Below are positions 5,030 through 34,909 of a DNA stretch of 34,909 nt, in pieces. How positions within the stretch are numbered: the first letter of the stretch is position 1; each line of letters begins with the position of its first letter. Origin of the DNA: an uncultured Pseudomonadota bacterium (GTDB taxonomy: Bacteria; Pseudomonadota; Alphaproteobacteria; UBA3830); the NCBI GenBank assembly GCA_902761495.1, contig CACWKL010000006.1:1-34909 (forward strand). The letters run 5' to 3'. The notes under the pieces are model-generated. The model saw only the letters and a program-made list of their open reading frames with translations, searched no databases and was not told the origin of the DNA. The translations under genes and the position numbers were made by a program.

Positions 5030-6232
5030 TCAATTTTCTGTCTTGTATTGGGTGGATATTTTCGTAATTAAATTATTTTCTATAACTTGTTCTATGAAAT
5101 TTCGGATATCATCAGGTGACACCGTTAGTATTTCTTTGGAAGTGTCGTTTTTTGATTGAAAATGCGTGATATATCGATCTTTGATAATACGATATTTTGC
5201 GGAAATATCCTCGTCCATGTTGATTTCTGAAAATTTCTGAAGTTTTGATATGGATTCCAATTTTTCATGAGAAAAATTCATTTTTTTAAGATAAGAAAAG
5301 AAACTTTTCAGGCTGATTTCAAAAGATTTTTTTGATATATCTCTTTTCGGTGTAAATCCAAACAGAATGAAATCAGGTTTCGCAAAATTTGTTATGAAGA
5401 AATTATCAGCCAATTGCGAATATTTTTTGAAATAATCAAACATTTCATGACTCAGTATAGTGGAAATAGCGCTTTGCTTCTCGCGGAGTTTGGAGGAATC
5501 CATTTTGTATATATAATACAAAGAGCGACCGAGGAATTTGCTTCTTGCTTCAATGAGTTGTTTCGAAGGATTTTGAAACATAATTGTATTTTGGTCGGCA
5601 TTTACACTCGCCGCATCGCCAGAAGATAATTGTTTCAAATGTAGCTTTTCTGCAAGTTGTTTTGTATCAAATCTTCCGCAGATAATAATATTAAGGCGAG
5701 CTTTTCTATATTTATTTAAGGAGTTTTTTAAATCATTCTCCGTAATATTATCCAAGATTGATTCGTTAAAAATGTATTTGGAATCCACCTTGGAATAAAT
5801 CTCGTTATCAACAAAATCAGTCTCAAAATAATCGGATAGTTTATATTCCAATTTTATCTTGTCTTTTATCAATGGGAGATCAGTTACGTCAGTTTTGTTG
5901 TTAAGTATTATTTTTATGATATTCGGAATTTGTTCATTTGCTACGATTGCGCTAATCTCTGAAAAATTATCATGTATGCCGAAATCAATATCTGTTCCTA
6001 GGTTTCCAGCAGATTTTTTCGATGTTTCACTTAAAAAGGTTTTTCCTATTACCTCAGCTTCGGAAATATTTTTTAATTGATTCAGTCCGACGGAGTAAAA
6101 CACTCCCACTTTGGCGATCGGAAGAAAGAAATCATCGCAAACAATTACTCGCGCATCTTCTAATTTATATTCCTGAATCGACGCAAAAAGAGTCTGAAAA
6201 CACAAAAATAACAGAATTATTGTTCTTTTCAT
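5030..6232 (-). CDS. Highly diverged M16-type homologue, secreted, no zinc site (array gene 3)
   Basis: This 400-residue protein has a Sec signal peptide (MKRTIILLFLCFQTLFA, cleavage about residue 17). M16 relatedness rests on the N-terminal pattern (bad-tempered strand IVCDDFFLPIAKVGVFYSVG, then a helix), on length, and on position in an M16 array. The HxxEH region reads SEAEVIGKTF, with no metal ligands. The half-domain boundary near RLNIIICGRFD resembles the usual M16 'vvGdf' strand. Its start overlaps the stop of array gene 2 by four bases (ATGA), which implies translational coupling. It is the most diverged member of the array, and the family call is less certain than for genes 1 and 2. 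Confidence 0.65.
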   Translation of the reverse strand: MKRTIILLFLCFQTLFASIQEYKLEDARVIVCDDFFLPIAKVGVFYSVGLNQLKNISEAEVIGKTFLSETSKKSAGNLGTDIDFGIHDNFSEISAIVANEQIPNIIKIILNNKTDVTDLPLIKDKIKLEYKLSDYFETDFVDNEIYSKVDSKYIFNESILDNITENDLKNSLNKYRKARLNIIICGRFDTKQLAEKLHLKQLSSGDAASVNADQNTIMFQNPSKQLIEARSKFLGRSLYYIYKMDSSKLREKQSAISTILSHEMFDYFKKYSQLADNFFITNFAKPDFILFGFTPKRDISKKSFEISLKSFFSYLKKMNFSHEKLESISKLQKFSEINMDEDISAKYRIIKDRYITHFQSKNDTSKEILTVSPDDIRNFIEQVIENNLITKISTQYKTEN

Positions 6233-8970: not shown

Positions 8971-11067
8971 CTAGGCCATCAATTTTGCAAGCGAAGCCAA
9001 AAGCAAAATTGCGACAATATTCGTAATTTTGATCATAGGATTAATCGCTGGGCCAGCGGTGTCCTTGTAAGGATCTCCGACAGTGTCTCCGGTAACAGCT
9101 GCTTTGTGAGCATCCGATCCTTTTCCACCGAAATTTCCGTCTTCGATGTACTTTTTCGCGTTATCCCAAGCTCCACCTCCGGAAGTCATGGAAATAGCCA
9201 AGAACAGACCCGTCAAAATAGTTCCTAAAAGCATAGCTCCGACACTGATTAACCCGGCTTCGTGTCCGGCGACGATTCCGATTGCGAAGTATAGAACCAC
9301 AGGAGCTAATACCGGCAACAAAGATGGAAGAATCATTTCTTTGATCGCTTCTTGAGTTAGAATGTCGACCGCCGTTTTGTAATCCGGTTTCGCTTTTCCT
9401 GTCATAATTCCCTTGATGGTCTTGAACTGGCGGCGTACCTCCAGAACGATCGCTCCACCGGCTCTTCCGACAGCCATCATTCCGCATGCTCCGAAGAGAT
9501 AAGGCAACAGACCACCACAGATCAATCCGATAACTACATAAGGGTTACCCAGATCGAAGTGTACGTTCAAATTTTTGAAGTAGAATTCTACGTCCTGAGT
9601 GTAAGCAGAGAACAAAACCAAAGACGCCAAACCTGCGGATCCGATCGCATATCCCTTGGTGACGGCTTTTGTCGTGTTTCCGACAGCGTCCAGCTTGTCT
9701 GTAACGTTACGAATGCCTTCCGGAAGCCCCGACATTTCGGCGATGCCACCGGCATTATCCGTCACTGGACCATAAGCGTCTAAAGTAACGATAATTCCTG
9801 CCAAAGCAAGCATGGAAGTTGCAGAAATTGCAATTCCGTAAAGGCCTGCACTCATATATGAAACCAAAATTCCGGCACAAATTATCAAGGCAGGAACAGC
9901 CGTTGCTTCCATCGAGATGGCCAAACCCTGAATAATATTTGTTCCGTGTCCGGTCGTAGAAGCTTGCGCAATACTCTTAACAGGCCTGTAGGAGTAAGAT
10001 GTATAATACTCTGTGATAAACACCAAGAGCAAAGTAATAACCAATCCAACCAAGGCACAAACAAAAATGTCAGATCCAGTGAAAGCTAAACTTCCAATAT
10101 TGTAAACGGAACTCAGATCCCCAAGCATTTTCTTCGTAACCATGTAAATGAAAACGATAGAAAAAACAATGGTGGCAAACAATCCCTTATACAAAGCGTG
10201 CATGACTTTACCGCTCTTACCTAATTTTACGAAAAAGGTTCCCAGGATGGATCCCAGAATGCAAACTCCGGAAATCGCTAAAGGATACAGCATGAATAAA
10301 TTCTTCATAGAATCTGTAAAGAAAATTCCTGCTAAGACCATTGTTGCCGCGATGGTCACGACGTAGGTTTCAAATAAGTCGGCTGCCATACCGGCGCAGT
10401 CCCCGACATTGTCTCCCACGTTGTCCGCGATAACGGCAGGATTTCTCGGGTCATCTTCAGGAATTCCCGCTTCAACTTTTCCGACCAAATCGGCTCCGAC
10501 GTCAGCTCCTTTTGTAAAGATTCCTCCGCCGAGACGTGCGAAAATCGAAATCAAAGAAGCTCCGAATCCCATTGCGATCAGCGACTCAGAAATAAGTCTT
10601 TCATCGGACAAAAACGCTTTCAAATAGAAGAAGTAGAAGGAAACTCCCAATAATCCTAATCCTACAACTAAAAATCCGGTAACAGATCCCGATTTATAAG
10701 CGACTGACAATGCATAATTAATTCCTTTTTTGGCGGCCTCAGTAGTACGAACATTTGCTCTGACGGAAATGTTCATGCCGATATAACCGGCGATTCCCGA
10801 CAAAACTGCGCCCAGCACAAAACCCACAGCAGGATAAATTCCCATGAAGGAAGCGACAAGTGCGGCGATAATTACACCAACTATCGATATAGTTGTGTAC
10901 TGCCTATTTAAATATGCTGAAGCTCCACTCTGTATTGCTCCTGCAATCTCTTGCATTTTTGCATTTCCAGCGCTGAGTTTGAGCATATTCATGGTATTGA
11001 CCGCTCCGTATATCAGAGCGAGTACGCCCGATATCACAACGATACATTCAAAAGTACAACATTCCAT
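8971..11067 (-). CDS. hppA: Membrane-bound proton-translocating pyrophosphatase, K+-independent type
   Basis: The protein couples hydrolysis of pyrophosphate to H+ pumping across the inner membrane. It is a 698-residue, strongly hydrophobic, multi-helix protein. The signature acidic region spans about residues 189-235 ([35 protein letters not shown]). Lys467 in GNTTKA is the known marker of the K+-independent class; K+-dependent enzymes have Ala there. The C-terminal motif [18 protein letters not shown] is intact. The frame continues 11 codons upstream, but the ATG at 11067 has a GGAG element at ideal spacing, so I use it. It is monocistronic, with its own promoter and terminator. Confidence 0.97.
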
Positions 11068-11102
11068 AAATACTCTCCAAATACATATAACCAAACGCAT
11101 GT

Positions 11103-14273: not shown

Positions 14274-14301
14274 CAAAAAGTTTCTTTAGTTGGGAGTTTA
14301 T

Positions 14302-16020
14302 ATGCAGGAAGATCAGGAACAAAAACGCAATGTTATGCTGTTTTTCGCGATTTCGCTAATTGTTATGCTTGGGTATCCTTATGTTTTTAAGTCTTCGACA
14401 CCGGTACAAGTTAGTGATCTGAATAATCAGAGTCAGGAAATATCAACAATTTCTTCTAAGGCTCAAAGTTCTGACACAAGATTGGCGTCCAAGAGAGAGA
14501 ACACCGTTCCGCAGGCGGAAGTAAAAACGATTGAAATTCGCGCTCCGAGAATTTCCGGAACCATTTCAACTAAAGGGTTGAAATTCAGTGATGTTAATTT
14601 AAATGATTATACTCAGGAGTATGATAATCAGGATAAAGTTTCAATTTTCGGAAAAGAAAATTATTTTGCTGCTTCCGGCTGGAAATCGGATGATAAATCG
14701 CTGATTTTGCCTGATGAAAATTCGTGTTGGGAGACAGACAGTACTAAATTAACTCCCGAGTCGCCGATTACTCTGACCTGGGATAACGGTTCAGGATTGA
14801 TCTTCACGAAAAAAATCTCCGTTGATGAAAATTTTGTATTCACAATCACCGATGAAGTGAAAAACAACGGTGCTGAGGCTGTTCGGGTAAAAAATACCAC
14901 TTTGATTTATCGTGAAGTGGGTAAGGACAAGTCCGAATCCATAGGGTTTTACCATGGTCCTATCGGATATTTCGACGGAAAATTACGTGAAGTCGGATAT
15001 GAGGACATCGATAAGGAAAAGGAAATATCGTACAAGTCCAAAGGCGGATGGTTCGGTATTACCGATAAGTACTGGCTGGTATCTTTCATTCCCGAGCACA
15101 ATTCTTCTTATTCCGTAAATTACAAGTCGTTGGGGAAAGGCAATTACGCAATCGAAAGCAGTGAGGATTGGTCGGTTGTGAATCCATCTTCGAAATTTTC
15201 GAAAGATTATCATCTGTTTATAGGAGCGAAAGAGATAAACACCCTCGACATGTATGAGGAGAAGTTGAATGTGCCGCATTTGGATTTGGTCATCGATTTC
15301 GGATATCTCTACATTCTCACGAAGCCTCTGCTGTACGCGATGTCCTACGTCAAGGGGTTGGTTGGAAATATGGGGTTCGGGATTCTTCTGATAACTTTGT
15401 TGCTGAAGCTGCTTCTGTTCCCGCTCGCCAATAGAGCTTATCGTTCCATGAACAGAATGAAGACGATCCAGCCGAAGATCAAAGCTCTGCAGACCAAGTA
15501 TGCGGGTGATCAGATGAAATTGGGGCAGGCGGTTTCCGAACTCTACAAAAAGGAGAAGGTAAATCCGTTGGGCGGATGTTTGCCGATGTTCCTTCAATGG
15601 CCGATTTTGTTTGCGCTGTACAAAGTGTTGTACATTTCGATCGAAATGAGGCAAGCTCCTTTCATTTGGTGGATTCACGACTTGTCAGTAGCTGATCCGT
15701 GGTCGATTTTAAATCTGGGCGGACTGATTCCCGTCACTTTGCCGGGCTTTCTGCAGATCGGAATTTGGCCGTTGTTGATGGGATTGTCTATGTGGATTCA
15801 GCAAAAGATGGGGCCGGCTCCTGCGGATCCTTCTCAGGCGAAAATGATGATGATAATGCCGATAATGTTTACGTTGATGTTCTCGCGTCTGCCGTCTGGA
15901 TTGATTATTTACTGGACTTTCAGCAATTTGTTCGCGATCGTGCAACAGTACGTGATCAGAAAGGTTGATGAGAAAAACGCTTTGGCGAAATCTGAGGTAA
16001 AATCCGGGGCGAAAAGTTGA
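14302..16020 (+). CDS. yidC: Membrane protein insertase YidC
   Basis: YidC inserts and folds inner-membrane proteins, alone or with SecYEG. The 572-residue protein has an N-terminal transmembrane helix (about 12-28). A large periplasmic beta domain follows (to about residue 340), then the conserved insertase core with FPLANRAYRSMNRMKTIQPK, EKVNPLGGCLPMFLQWPI and MPIMFTLMFSRLPSGLIIYW. The family's hydrophilic-groove Arg (R366 in E. coli) is replaced by Lys369 in LLLKLLLFPL, which keeps the positive charge. The start at 14302 has GGGAG six bases upstream; a TTG four codons earlier is not needed. Its stop overlaps the engB start, a typical alphaproteobacterial order. Confidence 0.97.
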   Translation: MQEDQEQKRNVMLFFAISLIVMLGYPYVFKSSTPVQVSDLNNQSQEISTISSKAQSSDTRLASKRENTVPQAEVKTIEIRAPRISGTISTKGLKFSDVNLNDYTQEYDNQDKVSIFGKENYFAASGWKSDDKSLILPDENSCWETDSTKLTPESPITLTWDNGSGLIFTKKISVDENFVFTITDEVKNNGAEAVRVKNTTLIYREVGKDKSESIGFYHGPIGYFDGKLREVGYEDIDKEKEISYKSKGGWFGITDKYWLVSFIPEHNSSYSVNYKSLGKGNYAIESSEDWSVVNPSSKFSKDYHLFIGAKEINTLDMYEEKLNVPHLDLVIDFGYLYILTKPLLYAMSYVKGLVGNMGFGILLITLLLKLLLFPLANRAYRSMNRMKTIQPKIKALQTKYAGDQMKLGQAVSELYKKEKVNPLGGCLPMFLQWPILFALYKVLYISIEMRQAPFIWWIHDLSVADPWSILNLGGLIPVTLPGFLQIGIWPLLMGLSMWIQQKMGPAPADPSQAKMMMIMPIMFTLMFSRLPSGLIIYWTFSNLFAIVQQYVIRKVDEKNALAKSEVKSGAKS

Positions 16021-20048: not shown

Positions 20049-21224
20049 ATGGAATTGTCTGACAAAGTGGTTCTGGTTCGAGTGGATTTTAATGTCCCGA
20101 TGGGAAATGGCATCATAATGGATGATGCTAGGATAAGAGTTCCTGTCGCAACCGTGAGAGATTTGCAGAATAGAGGAGCGAAAGTTGTTTTGATATCTCA
20201 TCTCGGTAAGACTTCAGACCAAACAGAGGTAGAGAGTTTGAGACAATTAATTCCTCATATAGAGAAGATTTACAAGAGTTCCGTTTTGTTTATAGAGAAC
20301 TATTTGAGTGAAAATACCCGATCTTTGATAAAGAAAGCTCCTCAGAATAGTTTAATCCTTTTTGAGAATCTCAGATTCCATCCGCAGGAGGAAAGTTGCG
20401 ATTTGGCTTTTGCCGAAAAATTGGCGTCATTAGGGGATTTTTTCGTGAACGAGGCATTTTCGGTATCTCATCGTAAACATGCTTCGGTTTTCGGAATACC
20501 TCAGTTTTTGCCGTCAGATTTGGGTGAGAATTTTAAGAAAGAAATTAAAAATATAGAGAGATTTTTTAATTATTCTTCCGGGAAAAGAATGGCTATTATC
20601 GGAGGTTCGAAGTTATTAACGAAGATAAAATTGCTCAAGCGGCTAGTTACTAAGGTAGATAAGTTGGCTCTTGGAGGAGGAATTGCGGGTGCTTTTCTTT
20701 CCTATTTCAAGAATGACATATCGGAGGTTTTTGACTTTGGAGAGTACGAAGCAGATGTTAAAGAAGTTACGGAAAATGCAAAAAAATTTGGATGTGAATT
20801 AATTGTCCCGACTGATTTTTCCGCTTTGATTTCGACAAAAAGCGAGCATGCAATTATGCGGTCCGAGGATTCCAATACAATGGTTTTCGATATAGGACCT
20901 GATTCCGTAAAGTTGCTGGAAGATCATATCTTGACCAGCGACATGGTATTGTGGAACGGTCCGGTGGGGTTGTTCGAGCGAAGTCCGTTTGAGTTTGGAA
21001 CAAAGGCGATTGCCGAATTTATTGCCGAAAGAACGCAAAATCATCAGTTGATTTCGATTATCGGAGGAGGCGATACAGGGTTTGCCATGAAAAAATTCGG
21101 CGTCGCGGATAAGATGACATGCATATCTACAGCAGGCGGTGCTTTCCTGAATTATGTCGAAAATGAAGATTGTCCGGCCTTGGAGGCGATACGTATCAGT
21201 CACAGTAAATTCGGAGAATTGTGA
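20049..21224 (+). CDS. pgk: Phosphoglycerate kinase (diverged sequence)
   Basis: Pgk interconverts 1,3-bisphosphoglycerate plus ADP and 3-phosphoglycerate plus ATP. The 391-residue chain keeps VRVDFNVP, the substrate-binding Arg in ENLRFHP and the His/Arg region SHRKHAS. It also keeps the paired Lys of GGSKLLTK, plus VLWNGPVGLFE and the nucleotide loop GGGDTGFA. It differs from typical Pgk in SHLGKT (usually SHLGRP, so Arg to Lys) and FSVSHRKHAS (usually FGTAHRAHAS). No other glycolytic gene (gap, fba) is adjacent. It appears functional but evolves faster than usual. Confidence 0.93.
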   Translation: MELSDKVVLVRVDFNVPMGNGIIMDDARIRVPVATVRDLQNRGAKVVLISHLGKTSDQTEVESLRQLIPHIEKIYKSSVLFIENYLSENTRSLIKKAPQNSLILFENLRFHPQEESCDLAFAEKLASLGDFFVNEAFSVSHRKHASVFGIPQFLPSDLGENFKKEIKNIERFFNYSSGKRMAIIGGSKLLTKIKLLKRLVTKVDKLALGGGIAGAFLSYFKNDISEVFDFGEYEADVKEVTENAKKFGCELIVPTDFSALISTKSEHAIMRSEDSNTMVFDIGPDSVKLLEDHILTSDMVLWNGPVGLFERSPFEFGTKAIAEFIAERTQNHQLISIIGGGDTGFAMKKFGVADKMTCISTAGGAFLNYVENEDCPALEAIRISHSKFGEL

Positions 21225-30728: not shown

Positions 30729-32369
<1,641 letters not shown>

Positions 32370-32893: not shown

Positions 32894-34669
32894 TTATTTG
32901 CGGATATCTCCGAATTTTTTCTTAGCATTACCAAAATCAGCCATTGGAAATTTTACCAAGAATTTAGTTCCTTTGCCTTCGACAGAGATTATATCCAGTT
33001 CCCCATTATAGTGTTTGATCGTTTCCAATATCTGAATCAAACCCAAACCGAAGCCATTTTGTTTAGTACTTTTGGGAGCAATATTATTTCGGATCTGATT
33101 CATCATTTCCTTCGACATTCCTCGTCCATTGTCTTCAATTTCTATAATCAAGTCTTTCCACAAGCAAGAAAGTGACAGTTTAATTGAGGCTCTATCTTTA
33201 TATTGGCAAGATTCTACGGAATTATTTATAAAATTGGATATCATTCTTTTGAAGTCGGATATATTCACATTTACAATTGTCGATTTTGCTGATGGATTAC
33301 ATGAGAGCTCTATATTCACATTTTTGTCTTTGTATTCCAATTTCTTTTGTTTAACTTCGTCCTGTAAGATCGAAAAGACCGGGACACGGCGATTATCCTG
33401 ATATTCCAAATTTTCCTTGCAACGTTTGTTCTCTTGTAAAAGATCGTTTGATATACAGCTAATATCCTTTGTAATATTTGTTAAAATTTTTTGCTGTTTT
33501 TCCGTGAGGTTGGAACAACTATGGGTAAAAACTCTCAAACTTGCGAGCGGAGAGGCGATGTCATGAGCCATTTGTGAAGTAAATTGACTAAATTCCGTCT
33601 GAAGATCGATTTTTGCCTGCTGAATCTTATTCAAAAATTCAAGTTTTATGATTTTTTCTTTTTCTTGCTCAATTTTTTTCGAATCGGTGATATCTATGGA
33701 TAATCCTATTACTCCCTCAATTTCGTTATTCACTATGAGAGGAGATTTTACCGATAGAAAAAATCTTCCTTTATCTGCTTCTTCTACGACGATAGTTGAT
33801 TGGGTATTGATTACTTCGAGGCTGTTTTGCCATGTCTTTGGGTTCAATGCAGTAGCATCAGTATCTGAGACAATTTTTCCCAGGGATTCATTCTTATAAA
33901 CAATAGTGCCATCCTTGTTTATGACAAAAAAATTTATGTTTTTCGCAACTTTCGTGATGAATTCGATTATTTCGCAATTTACCTCGTTTCTGTCCAGAGA
34001 GCGATGTTGGCGACGTTGTGCGTTGTTCGACATAGTGTAAGGCAAGTGCGTGATATTCGACTGATAATGCTGAATTATATTAGCGATTGGCGGAGAAAGT
34101 TTTGTCGGATATATGATAACGCTATTCTTGAAATAGAGACATGTGTAGGCACATTCTTCCAAAATAAAACTGATATTTTGAGCAAAGGTTCCGTTGGCTC
34201 TGATTGCAGCCTTTTCCGCTTCCTTTAAAACTGTCTCGCGGAAGTCAGGAATAATTCCGTTTCCGGTTTCATCGCCGGCGAATGCAATTTTTACTTTTTT
34301 GAGCCATTTTGCAAACAACGGACTGTCCAGGCCTTCAGTCCAAGAGTGTAAAGTATAAGGTAGCGTCAACTTGTTAATGATTTTTTCGTTCGCTTTAAAC
34401 CATTTGGTTTTGATTTTGGGATTTGAGTATTGCTCAAACTCCGAAATCGAGTGGCGGTAGAGATATGACGTATCCCAAATATGAACGTGAGAAATTTTTC
34501 TACTGATCAATTCACTATTCAGGGAGTTAATCAGCTCCTCAAAACCTTCACCCGATTGGCTTCGACAGCTGTAAGATGCCACAACATTTGGGGATATGCT
34601 TTTTTCGCTCGCTTCTTCCCAAAAATTCCCGACCAATTTAGACCATCTCACAACTCGTTCTGTAGACAT
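32894..34669 (-). CDS. Cyclodipeptide-synthase-like domain fused to PAS sensor histidine kinase
   Basis: This 591-residue protein has no transmembrane helix, so it is cytoplasmic. Residues 1-215 resemble tRNA-dependent cyclodipeptide synthases. The early strand VVASYSCRS places Ser34 where AlbC has the nucleophile Ser37. VHIWDTSYLYRHSI corresponds to AlbC's VYVDTHIDEMLI. SFILEECAY puts Glu172 at the place of Glu182, with Phe168 where Tyr178 is expected. VIIYP (Tyr187-Pro188) is the YP mark of the XYP subfamily. A PAS domain follows (about 237-330), then a coiled linker, an H-box with phospho-acceptor His369 (MAHDIASPLA), an N-box (ISNFINNSVES), DNGRGM and FGLGL. All kinase boxes are intact. 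The ATG at 34669 has AAGGAG seven bases upstream. No response regulator or receiver domain is in the window. Confidence 0.8.
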   Translation of the reverse strand: MSTERVVRWSKLVGNFWEEASEKSISPNVVASYSCRSQSGEGFEELINSLNSELISRKISHVHIWDTSYLYRHSISEFEQYSNPKIKTKWFKANEKIINKLTLPYTLHSWTEGLDSPLFAKWLKKVKIAFAGDETGNGIIPDFRETVLKEAEKAAIRANGTFAQNISFILEECAYTCLYFKNSVIIYPTKLSPPIANIIQHYQSNITHLPYTMSNNAQRRQHRSLDRNEVNCEIIEFITKVAKNINFFVINKDGTIVYKNESLGKIVSDTDATALNPKTWQNSLEVINTQSTIVVEEADKGRFFLSVKSPLIVNNEIEGVIGLSIDITDSKKIEQEKEKIIKLEFLNKIQQAKIDLQTEFSQFTSQMAHDIASPLASLRVFTHSCSNLTEKQQKILTNITKDISCISNDLLQENKRCKENLEYQDNRRVPVFSILQDEVKQKKLEYKDKNVNIELSCNPSAKSTIVNVNISDFKRMISNFINNSVESCQYKDRASIKLSLSCLWKDLIIEIEDNGRGMSKEMMNQIRNNIAPKSTKQNGFGLGLIQILETIKHYNGELDIISVEGKGTKFLVKFPMADFGNAKKKFGDIRK

Positions 34670-34909
34670 ACGAAGACTCCTTTCTTTCAATCTCAAAATT
34701 ATTTGCGCAGTTATGTACAAACAATCTAATCTAGATTTTATTATTATTAATTTTAAACTTCAACAGTCAAATATCCAGTTGTTTAAGAAAACGCTCAGAA
34801 ACGTCACCGGTGTCCACGTTCACCAAAAAGTGAGACAAAAGAGACGAAGTGAACTAGAGAGAGAAAACAAGAGAAATAGCAGAACAGAGCAAGAGAAAAA
34901 GAGTAGTCT
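34670..34909. other. Non-coding right end of the window
   Basis: No coding frame is evident. Near the kinase gene the DNA is AT-rich with a 10-bp palindrome (AATCTAGATT, 34728-34737). A CACCGGTG palindrome lies around 34805-34812. From about 34825 to the window end the plus strand is mostly A and G, with only scattered C/T, unlike the rest of the window. Confidence 0.5.

Follow-up and report, generated by a model that had tools for sequence, protein, structure and literature searches.

A cyclodipeptide synthase-like domain fused to a histidine kinase in an uncultured alphaproteobacterium and its relatives: a candidate aminoacyl-tRNA sensor

The 34,909-base contig CACWKL010000006.1 of an uncultured, symbiont-like alphaproteobacterium (lineage UBA3830, assembly GCA_902761495.1), analysed here over its whole length as the window, encodes a 591-residue protein (P0001) in which a domain derived from the cyclodipeptide synthases (CDPSs) is followed by a PAS-like segment and a histidine kinase. 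The analysis shows the order of the domains and a CDPS fold (from profile and structure prediction); it also shows that the kinase motifs are intact, that most of the active site is retained and that the design recurs widely. We propose, at about even chances, that the CDPS domain is the aminoacyl-tRNA-reading input domain of a soluble sensor histidine kinase, and it is probably a poor synthase. We know of no two-component kinase that has aminoacyl-tRNA or a CDPS domain as its input, and a search of titles and abstract beginnings in the open-licence PubMed Central (PMC) literature found no description of a CDPS-histidine kinase fusion. At 1.09 Mb and 76% completeness the genome is only partly assembled; its closest named relatives by CDPS-domain identity are 'Alphaproteobacteria bacterium' RGIG9754 from yak omasum (91%) and 'Holosporaceae bacterium' UBA3830 (83%), for which reason we term the host family Holosporaceae-like.

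The fusion gene and its two halves

The gene and its parts are the following.

32894..34669, minus strand: CDPS-PAS-histidine kinase fusion gene (open frame, Pfam kinase domains, orthologues of the same architecture at loci L021 and L022)
34677..34681, minus strand: AGGAG ribosome-binding site, 7 nt upstream of the start codon (direct sequence reading)
34010..34669, minus strand: N-terminal XYP-type CDPS-derived domain, residues 1-220 (phmmer, profile, AlphaFold2, VIA)
34574..34576, minus strand: codon of Ser32, the catalytic Ser position (Rgry S29, AlbC S37; alignment to 5mlp, codon confirmed)
34166..34168, minus strand: codon of Phe168, at the catalytic Tyr position (Rgry Y181, AlbC Y178; alignment, codon confirmed)
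34154..34159, minus strand: codons of Glu171-Glu172, Glu172 corresponding to AlbC E182 (Rgry E185; alignment)
34106..34111, minus strand: codons of Tyr187-Pro188, the XYP signature (Y202-P203; alignment)
33677..33973, minus strand: PAS-like segment, approximately residues 233-331 (PAS_4 matches in the protein and its homologues)
33461..33589, minus strand: HisKA match, residues 361-403, with phospho-acceptor His369 (E 1e-5)
32939..33259, minus strand: HATPase_c catalytic domain, residues 471-577 (Pfam E 1.4e-16)

The frame runs from the ATG at 34669 to the TAA at 32894-32896 with no internal stop, and together with the AGGAG this bears out the original prediction, made from the letters of the window, of a single uninterrupted 591-codon frame with a good ribosome-binding site; a purine-rich stretch also precedes the orthologous ATG in L002/L021 and L003/L022.

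The likeness of the first ~215 residues to a CDPS, claimed in the same prediction, is found in both sequence and predicted fold. Residues 1-215, used as a single phmmer query against the PDB, match the solved CDPS 5ocd (E 1.5e-5), and a profile of 29 homologous domains recovers six CDPS sequences from four enzymes (Rgry, Fdum, Nbra and Cglo; E 9.4e-9 to 1.3e-6), with the next match at E 0.56. The profile check that had been suggested, against Pfam PF16715, gave no match to the window protein at E up to 10, nor to any of the 29 homologous domains, and CDPS membership therefore rests on the profile-to-PDB and fold evidence. The AlphaFold2 model of the domain (mean predicted local distance difference test, pLDDT, of 91.4) has 35 Foldseek matches with E ≤ 0.001, every one of them a CDPS. 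With VIA-align it reaches Z 20.4 to the Nbra and Fdum CDPSs (about 200 residues, root-mean-square deviation 2.6 to 2.8), 19.2 to that of Rgry and 16.5 to that of Cglo, compared with 11 to 12 for AlbC and the Bacillus and Staphylococcus CDPSs, about 11 for tyrosyl-tRNA synthetases and only 11.0 for the Parcubacteria XYP enzyme (7qau). Of the two outcomes named beforehand as telling against a CDPS assignment, the missing Pfam match did come about, whereas a fold unlike that of the CDPSs did not. By descent, as read from sequence, and by predicted fold, the N-terminal domain is an XYP-type CDPS domain; of the marks by which we judged it, five agree with the family and two, the catalytic Tyr and the Pfam model, do not.

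The kinase half was compared across 23 full-length fusions from 17 genomes of the host family, the window's included (incomplete copies were kept out of this alignment and of the 29-row CDPS alignment). That the histidine kinase is complete, as had been predicted, is upheld by HATPase_c, which matches all 23 homologues, by the residues of the N, G1 and G2 boxes (N479, N483, D513, G515, G517, G539, G541 and G543), kept in at least 90% of them, and by the HDxxSP motif around His369 (H369, D370, S373 and P374), invariant in 23/23. The HisKA score itself is 25.9 bits against a curated cut-off of 26.9, and HisKA is found at E up to 0.05 in 12/23 homologues; the kinase motifs are intact. The PAS_4 match of the window protein is weak (residues 258-331, E 0.012, under its cut-off), a match at E up to 0.05 being present in 12 of the 23, window included, and in L057, the NYH-type paralogue, it is strong (E 1.1e-14). 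Hydropathy averaged over 19 residues peaks at 1.1, from which we infer that the protein is soluble and cytosolic. A receiver-like segment follows the kinase in 20/23 homologues, 10 of the 23 being recognised by Pfam Response_reg (E up to 0.05), and in this alignment the window protein, L021 and L022 have no C-terminal receiver. The search for a receiver remnant near these three genes gave short matches only, none convincing; within the window the strongest of them, 22 residues long at 1.4e-4, overlaps the end of the kinase itself.

In each of the three parts of the gene the non-synonymous rate is much lower than the synonymous one, with dN/dS against L021 of 0.073 for the CDPS domain, 0.031 for the linker and PAS segment and 0.129 for the kinase (in the comparison with L022, dS is saturated). 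The CDPS domain is under purifying selection.

Active site, input types and candidate function

Residue equivalents were taken from an HMMER alignment to 5mlp with the Rgry numbering of PMC7566563. The counts cover 53 domains, namely 33 Holosporaceae-like records, 19 from Endomicrobia and one Prevotellaceae bin, once 22 duplicate loci, L038 (its N-terminus cut by a contig end) and fragments of fewer than 150 profile positions had been set aside. The position of Ser32 holds Ser in 49 of 51 aligned domains and Cys in two, E171 is present in 53/53 and E172 in 48/53 (Lys in the other five), while Y187 is found in 51/52 and P188 in 52/52. The solved XYP CDPSs 5mlp, 5ocd and 9i5m all have Tyr at the catalytic position in the profile alignment; at position 168 the XYP-type domains of this kinase family have Phe in 52/53, the sole Tyr being that of L093, where Y187 is also lost. 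In AlbC the change Y178F impairs activity and the formation of the first aminoacyl-enzyme, and Tyr202 has a role in cyclisation and not in aminoacyl-enzyme formation (PMC5935735). As read from the alignment, the family keeps the nucleophile and the cyclisation Tyr, and what it alters is the residue by which the first aminoacyl group is positioned; with Phe at the Tyr178 position slow or absent synthase turnover would be expected. Basic residues are kept at positions 5 (48/49), 8 (46/49), 58 (52/52) and 212 (36/50; Thr in the window protein), which is compatible with the basic strands that contact tRNA in XYP CDPSs (PMC7566563), if, as we presume, these positions lie on those strands.

Searching the relatives with the whole window protein also drew in kinases with other N-termini. 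L057 (genome G013), of NYH type, is a single 746-residue frame with PF16715 at 9.6e-58 and HATPase_c at 2.5e-17; compared with a solved CDPS it keeps Ser37, Asn40 (Thr in the solved enzyme), Tyr178, Glu182 and Tyr202 (our AlbC numbering), with Lys at the His203 position. In L051 (G023) the CDPS recognised by PF16715 (2e-55) is a separate gene, placed between a PQ-loop gene and a gene for a PAS-kinase-receiver protein, and the same five residues, read by eye, are kept. A further N-terminus, type 3, is common to eleven more kinases. Its six-row profile found nothing better than E 0.047 among PDB sequences and the two members tested had no Pfam CDPS match, and its model (pLDDT 87.4, best Foldseek E 1.4e-8) aligns to an XYP CDPS with Z 20.2 over 207 residues. 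Profile-profile comparisons of the window's type (type 1) with type 3, of type 1 with the NYH type and of type 3 with the NYH type gave no reliable alignment, and the catalytic Ser and Tyr202 positions of type 3 could not be placed; the predicted folds are what link type 1 to type 3. Since three CDPS types sit on the same chassis, the common element is the CDPS fold and not one sequence family, which we regard as strong support for CDPS-type domains being a standard module for input to these kinases. The chassis also occurs, in the same bacterial family, in kinases with no CDPS domain in frame (L056:5834-7711, L124:1246-2790 and L125:2189-4069). The search for other CDPS-kinase fusions that had been recommended yielded many: those of the 17 family genomes, and L068 in Endomicrobia.

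In the mechanism that we favour, the CDPS domain would dock the acceptor end of an aminoacyl-tRNA in the pocket used by CDPSs, and the occupancy of this pocket, or Ser32 as aminoacyl-enzyme, would be relayed via the PAS-like segment to the kinase, which would then alter its autophosphorylation at His369. The phosphate would pass to a receiver, C-terminal in most relatives and, for the window protein, presumably one encoded elsewhere in the genome. The cell would in this way read the amount of a particular charged tRNA and adjust transcription, and different copies would read different aminoacyl-tRNAs. We favour such a sensor because of the CDPS ancestry, the mostly kept active site, the purifying selection and the joining of three CDPS versions to kinases. 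The original prediction had left three options, a kinase responding to charged tRNA, to a cyclodipeptide made by its own domain, or using the fold purely as a sensor of aminoacyl-tRNA levels, and among these the balance is shifted toward an aminoacyl-tRNA sensor by the place of the protein in a large kinase family that is shared horizontally and has at least three CDPS types, by the receiver-like extension of most relatives and by the nearly constant Phe at the catalytic Tyr position. Holosporineae reportedly rely on their hosts for amino acids (PMC11909080). Several observations nevertheless weigh against this proposal. The Tyr202 equivalent, not obviously needed by a pure tRNA sensor, is kept in nearly every domain; the NYH-type relatives L057 and L051 have an apparently complete CDPS active site and may, judging by their sequences, be active enzymes; Lys in place of Glu172 in five domains weakens any single binding model; and the PQ-loop partner described below could equally be a product exporter.

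These points bring forward a serious rival, which we consider less likely than charged-tRNA sensing, namely that the protein is an active synthase making a cyclodipeptide from two aminoacyl-tRNAs. The product would be sensed by the PAS segment or by a partner, and exported or imported by the PQ-loop protein of some relatives, so that a self-made signal would be wired to its receptor kinase. In its favour, the family keeps Ser, Glu172 and Tyr-Pro, and L057 (fused) and L051 (a separate gene beside the kinase) keep the four catalytic residues in domains that Pfam recognises as CDPSs. The isolated CDPS half of a CDPS-P450 fusion yields product (PMC5816076) and cyclodipeptides have been reported as signals (PMC13220807). 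In addition, 12 of 60 CDPS-domain loci have a PQ-loop membrane gene of 90 to 115 residues just upstream on the same strand (56 of the 60 include at least 400 nt of upstream sequence; 22 duplicate loci had been omitted and 19 short search loci replaced by longer stretches). Its spacing ranges from an overlap of 55 nt to a gap of 345 nt. Pfam identifies it as PQ-loop in each of four copies tested (E 7.7e-6 to 3e-8), and the one copy examined for hydrophobic segments has them. Such a gene likewise stands ahead of the CDPS and kinase genes in L051 and ahead of the kinase gene in L054. However, the PQ-loop profile has no match in the window genome or in its two nearest relatives (assemblies 63 to 78% complete), and the almost universal Phe at the Tyr178 position is the very change that impairs AlbC (PMC5935735). 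It is rather improbable, in our judgement, that the CDPS fold has instead become a receptor for another small ligand, such as a free amino acid, a dipeptide or a host cyclodipeptide, with no tRNA involved. Such a receptor could account for the ways in which the types depart from the canonical site, with F168 in the XYP domains and, in L057, Lys where His203 would be, and also for type 3, which has no detectable sequence similarity to PDB or Pfam CDPSs despite its predicted CDPS fold, but a plain small-molecule receptor would have no need of the catalytic Ser and the several basic positions that the XYP type keeps.

That the fusion is an assembly artefact or a functionless, decaying gene is very improbable. 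The gene start lies only 240 nt from the contig end (the contig being the whole window) and many Endomicrobia copies are broken, which could point that way; yet in two genomes of the same genus, G003 and G005, the orthologues are intact, carry the fusion too and likewise have groEL and groES as convergent neighbours, and an assembly chimaera is thereby ruled out for the window gene. Against decay stand also the dN/dS of 0.03 to 0.13 relative to L021 and the full-length fusions (23 rows) aligned from 17 family assemblies.

Distribution, exchange between phyla and gene surroundings

The family-wide searches detect the CDPS domain, not the fusion. Type 1 is present in 24 of 40 genomes of the host family, type 3 in 9/40 and a Pfam-recognised CDPS in 2/40, and the union of the three lists comes to 30/40. 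In 289 sampled genomes of the class, the window genome was the only match; four family genomes, its own included, are among the rows shown for this sample, and the family was therefore searched separately. PF16715 has no match in 398 sampled genomes of the phylum, nor in 14 control genomes, which were also silent in the PF16715 searches of the window protein and of the 40 family genomes, and is hence uninformative on absence. Outside the Alphaproteobacteria, type 1 occurs in 17 (some with fragments only) and type 3 in 16 of 198 sampled Elusimicrobiota genomes, the named loci all being Endomicrobium or Endomicrobiellum. The Endomicrobia fusion L068 has HATPase_c at 2.3e-14 and Response_reg at 3.4e-10, and in L074 and L085 the frame, followed by eye, continues into the kinase. 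Among 149 sampled Prevotellaceae genomes one matched, with a single copy in a 229-residue frame (L102:7944-8630). This copy is nearest in the tree to the Endomicrobia copy L105, and represents either a recent transfer or mis-binning.

In a tree of 52 domains, from which a row shorter than 170 aa was omitted and which was built by a quick method with support from the Shimodaira-Hasegawa-like approximate likelihood ratio test only, Holosporaceae-like and Endomicrobia rows are interleaved, with nine changes for either label, at least three of them forced by starred branches. Such interleaving of the sequences indicates repeated gene transfer across phyla, between Alphaproteobacteria and Elusimicrobiota recovered from the guts of termites and ruminants, and repeated exchange of this kind points to a function in their ecology. 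Genes for tyrosine recombinases are found close to some of the CDPS-kinase or related kinase genes (L063:1174-2367, L066:3-755 and L074:7029-7967, also in L028, L056 and L058; Phage_integrase by Pfam in L063 and L074), and are possible vehicles of the transfers.

In Endomicrobia (loci among L067-L115) the CDPS-kinase gene is present many times over, also as broken fragments, with up to 10 matching pieces in a single genome and several of them cut off at the end of a contig; a family with many copies and fast turnover would be expected to look like this. Poly-G tracts within the CDPS coding sequence coincide there with frame breaks (L105:6432, G11; L106:8451, G14; L107:8417, G9). Over ~5 kb L087 and L107 are 99.4% identical, L087 having G7 in frame (at 5967) and L107 G9 out of frame. 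Tracts of at least eight G/C number four in the 32 non-Holosporaceae loci (331 kb) and three of these lie in CDPS domains, which has a probability of ~0.001 under a uniform model, for a comparison picked after the fact; phase variation or assembly error are possible causes of the frame breaks. Among the Holosporaceae-like copies, some are broken into two frames, the break lying in the kinase part or ahead of it (L030:1842-4055, L042:1993-4364 and L028:7308-9518), through decay or sequencing error.

As for the surroundings of the gene, the window copy and its two orthologues are convergent to groEL (by Pfam) and groES (by eye). The recurring neighbour clusters that were listed, judged by eye and not annotated individually, included none that resembled a CDPS tailoring enzyme, a point in favour of the sensor. 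No Rfam families or tRNAs were found in the window, which carries the following housekeeping genes by Pfam.

190-2910: MutS
8974-11100: H+-pyrophosphatase
14290-16017: YidC
20049-21221: phosphoglycerate kinase
30732-32366: GroEL

A mobile-element origin of the window gene was also considered and rejected, no relative being found in IMG/VR (by pattern search), among PLSDB plasmids or in phage records.

Relation to known systems

Bacteria are known to sense amino acids through (p)ppGpp and RelA and through T-box or attenuation RNAs. The presence of the same design in unrelated termite- and ruminant-gut bacteria suggests that amino-acid supply may be sensed there through charged tRNA. Taken at its widest, our proposal, which we hold more tentatively in this form, is of a two-component system that would sense charged tRNA directly, a repurposed CDPS domain gating a histidine kinase, in diverse versions shared horizontally among unrelated gut symbionts, each copy with its own aminoacyl-tRNA, and thus of a functional counterpart of GCN2. 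If the CDPS domain is a sensor, this would be a further bacterial route of amino-acid sensing, built like GCN2; if it is an enzyme, one polypeptide would unite a signal synthase with its receptor. In both cases a single purified protein is enough to put signalling in uncultured gut symbionts to the test, and Pfam misses the commonest type of its input domain.

The closest enzymes, the XYP CDPSs of Rgry (5mlp), Fdum (5ocd), Nbra (5mlq/9i5m) and Cglo (6y4b), are alike in predicted fold (Z 16.5 to 20.4) and share with the window domain the catalytic Ser, the Glu-Glu pair and the Tyr-Pro signature, but the window domain differs in being fused to a PAS-histidine kinase, in having Phe at the Tyr178 position and in lying below Pfam CDPS detection. 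The described fusions of CDPSs with a methyltransferase, a P450 or an ABC transporter likewise place a CDPS domain inside a longer protein; the partner in those reported in PMC5816076 is a biosynthetic or transport domain, whereas here it is a signalling kinase. With PAS-containing (hybrid) sensor histidine kinases the family has in common the PAS-like segment, HisKA, HATPase_c and, in most homologues, the receiver-like segment, and differs in having the CDPS fold as its input and, in the window copy and its two orthologues, in having no receiver. Finally, the eukaryotic Ser/Thr kinase GCN2 senses uncharged tRNA through a class II domain like that of histidyl-tRNA synthetase (HisRS); it is not homologous to the window kinase, but the two would work alike, as kinases gated by a degenerate tRNA-binding enzyme domain.

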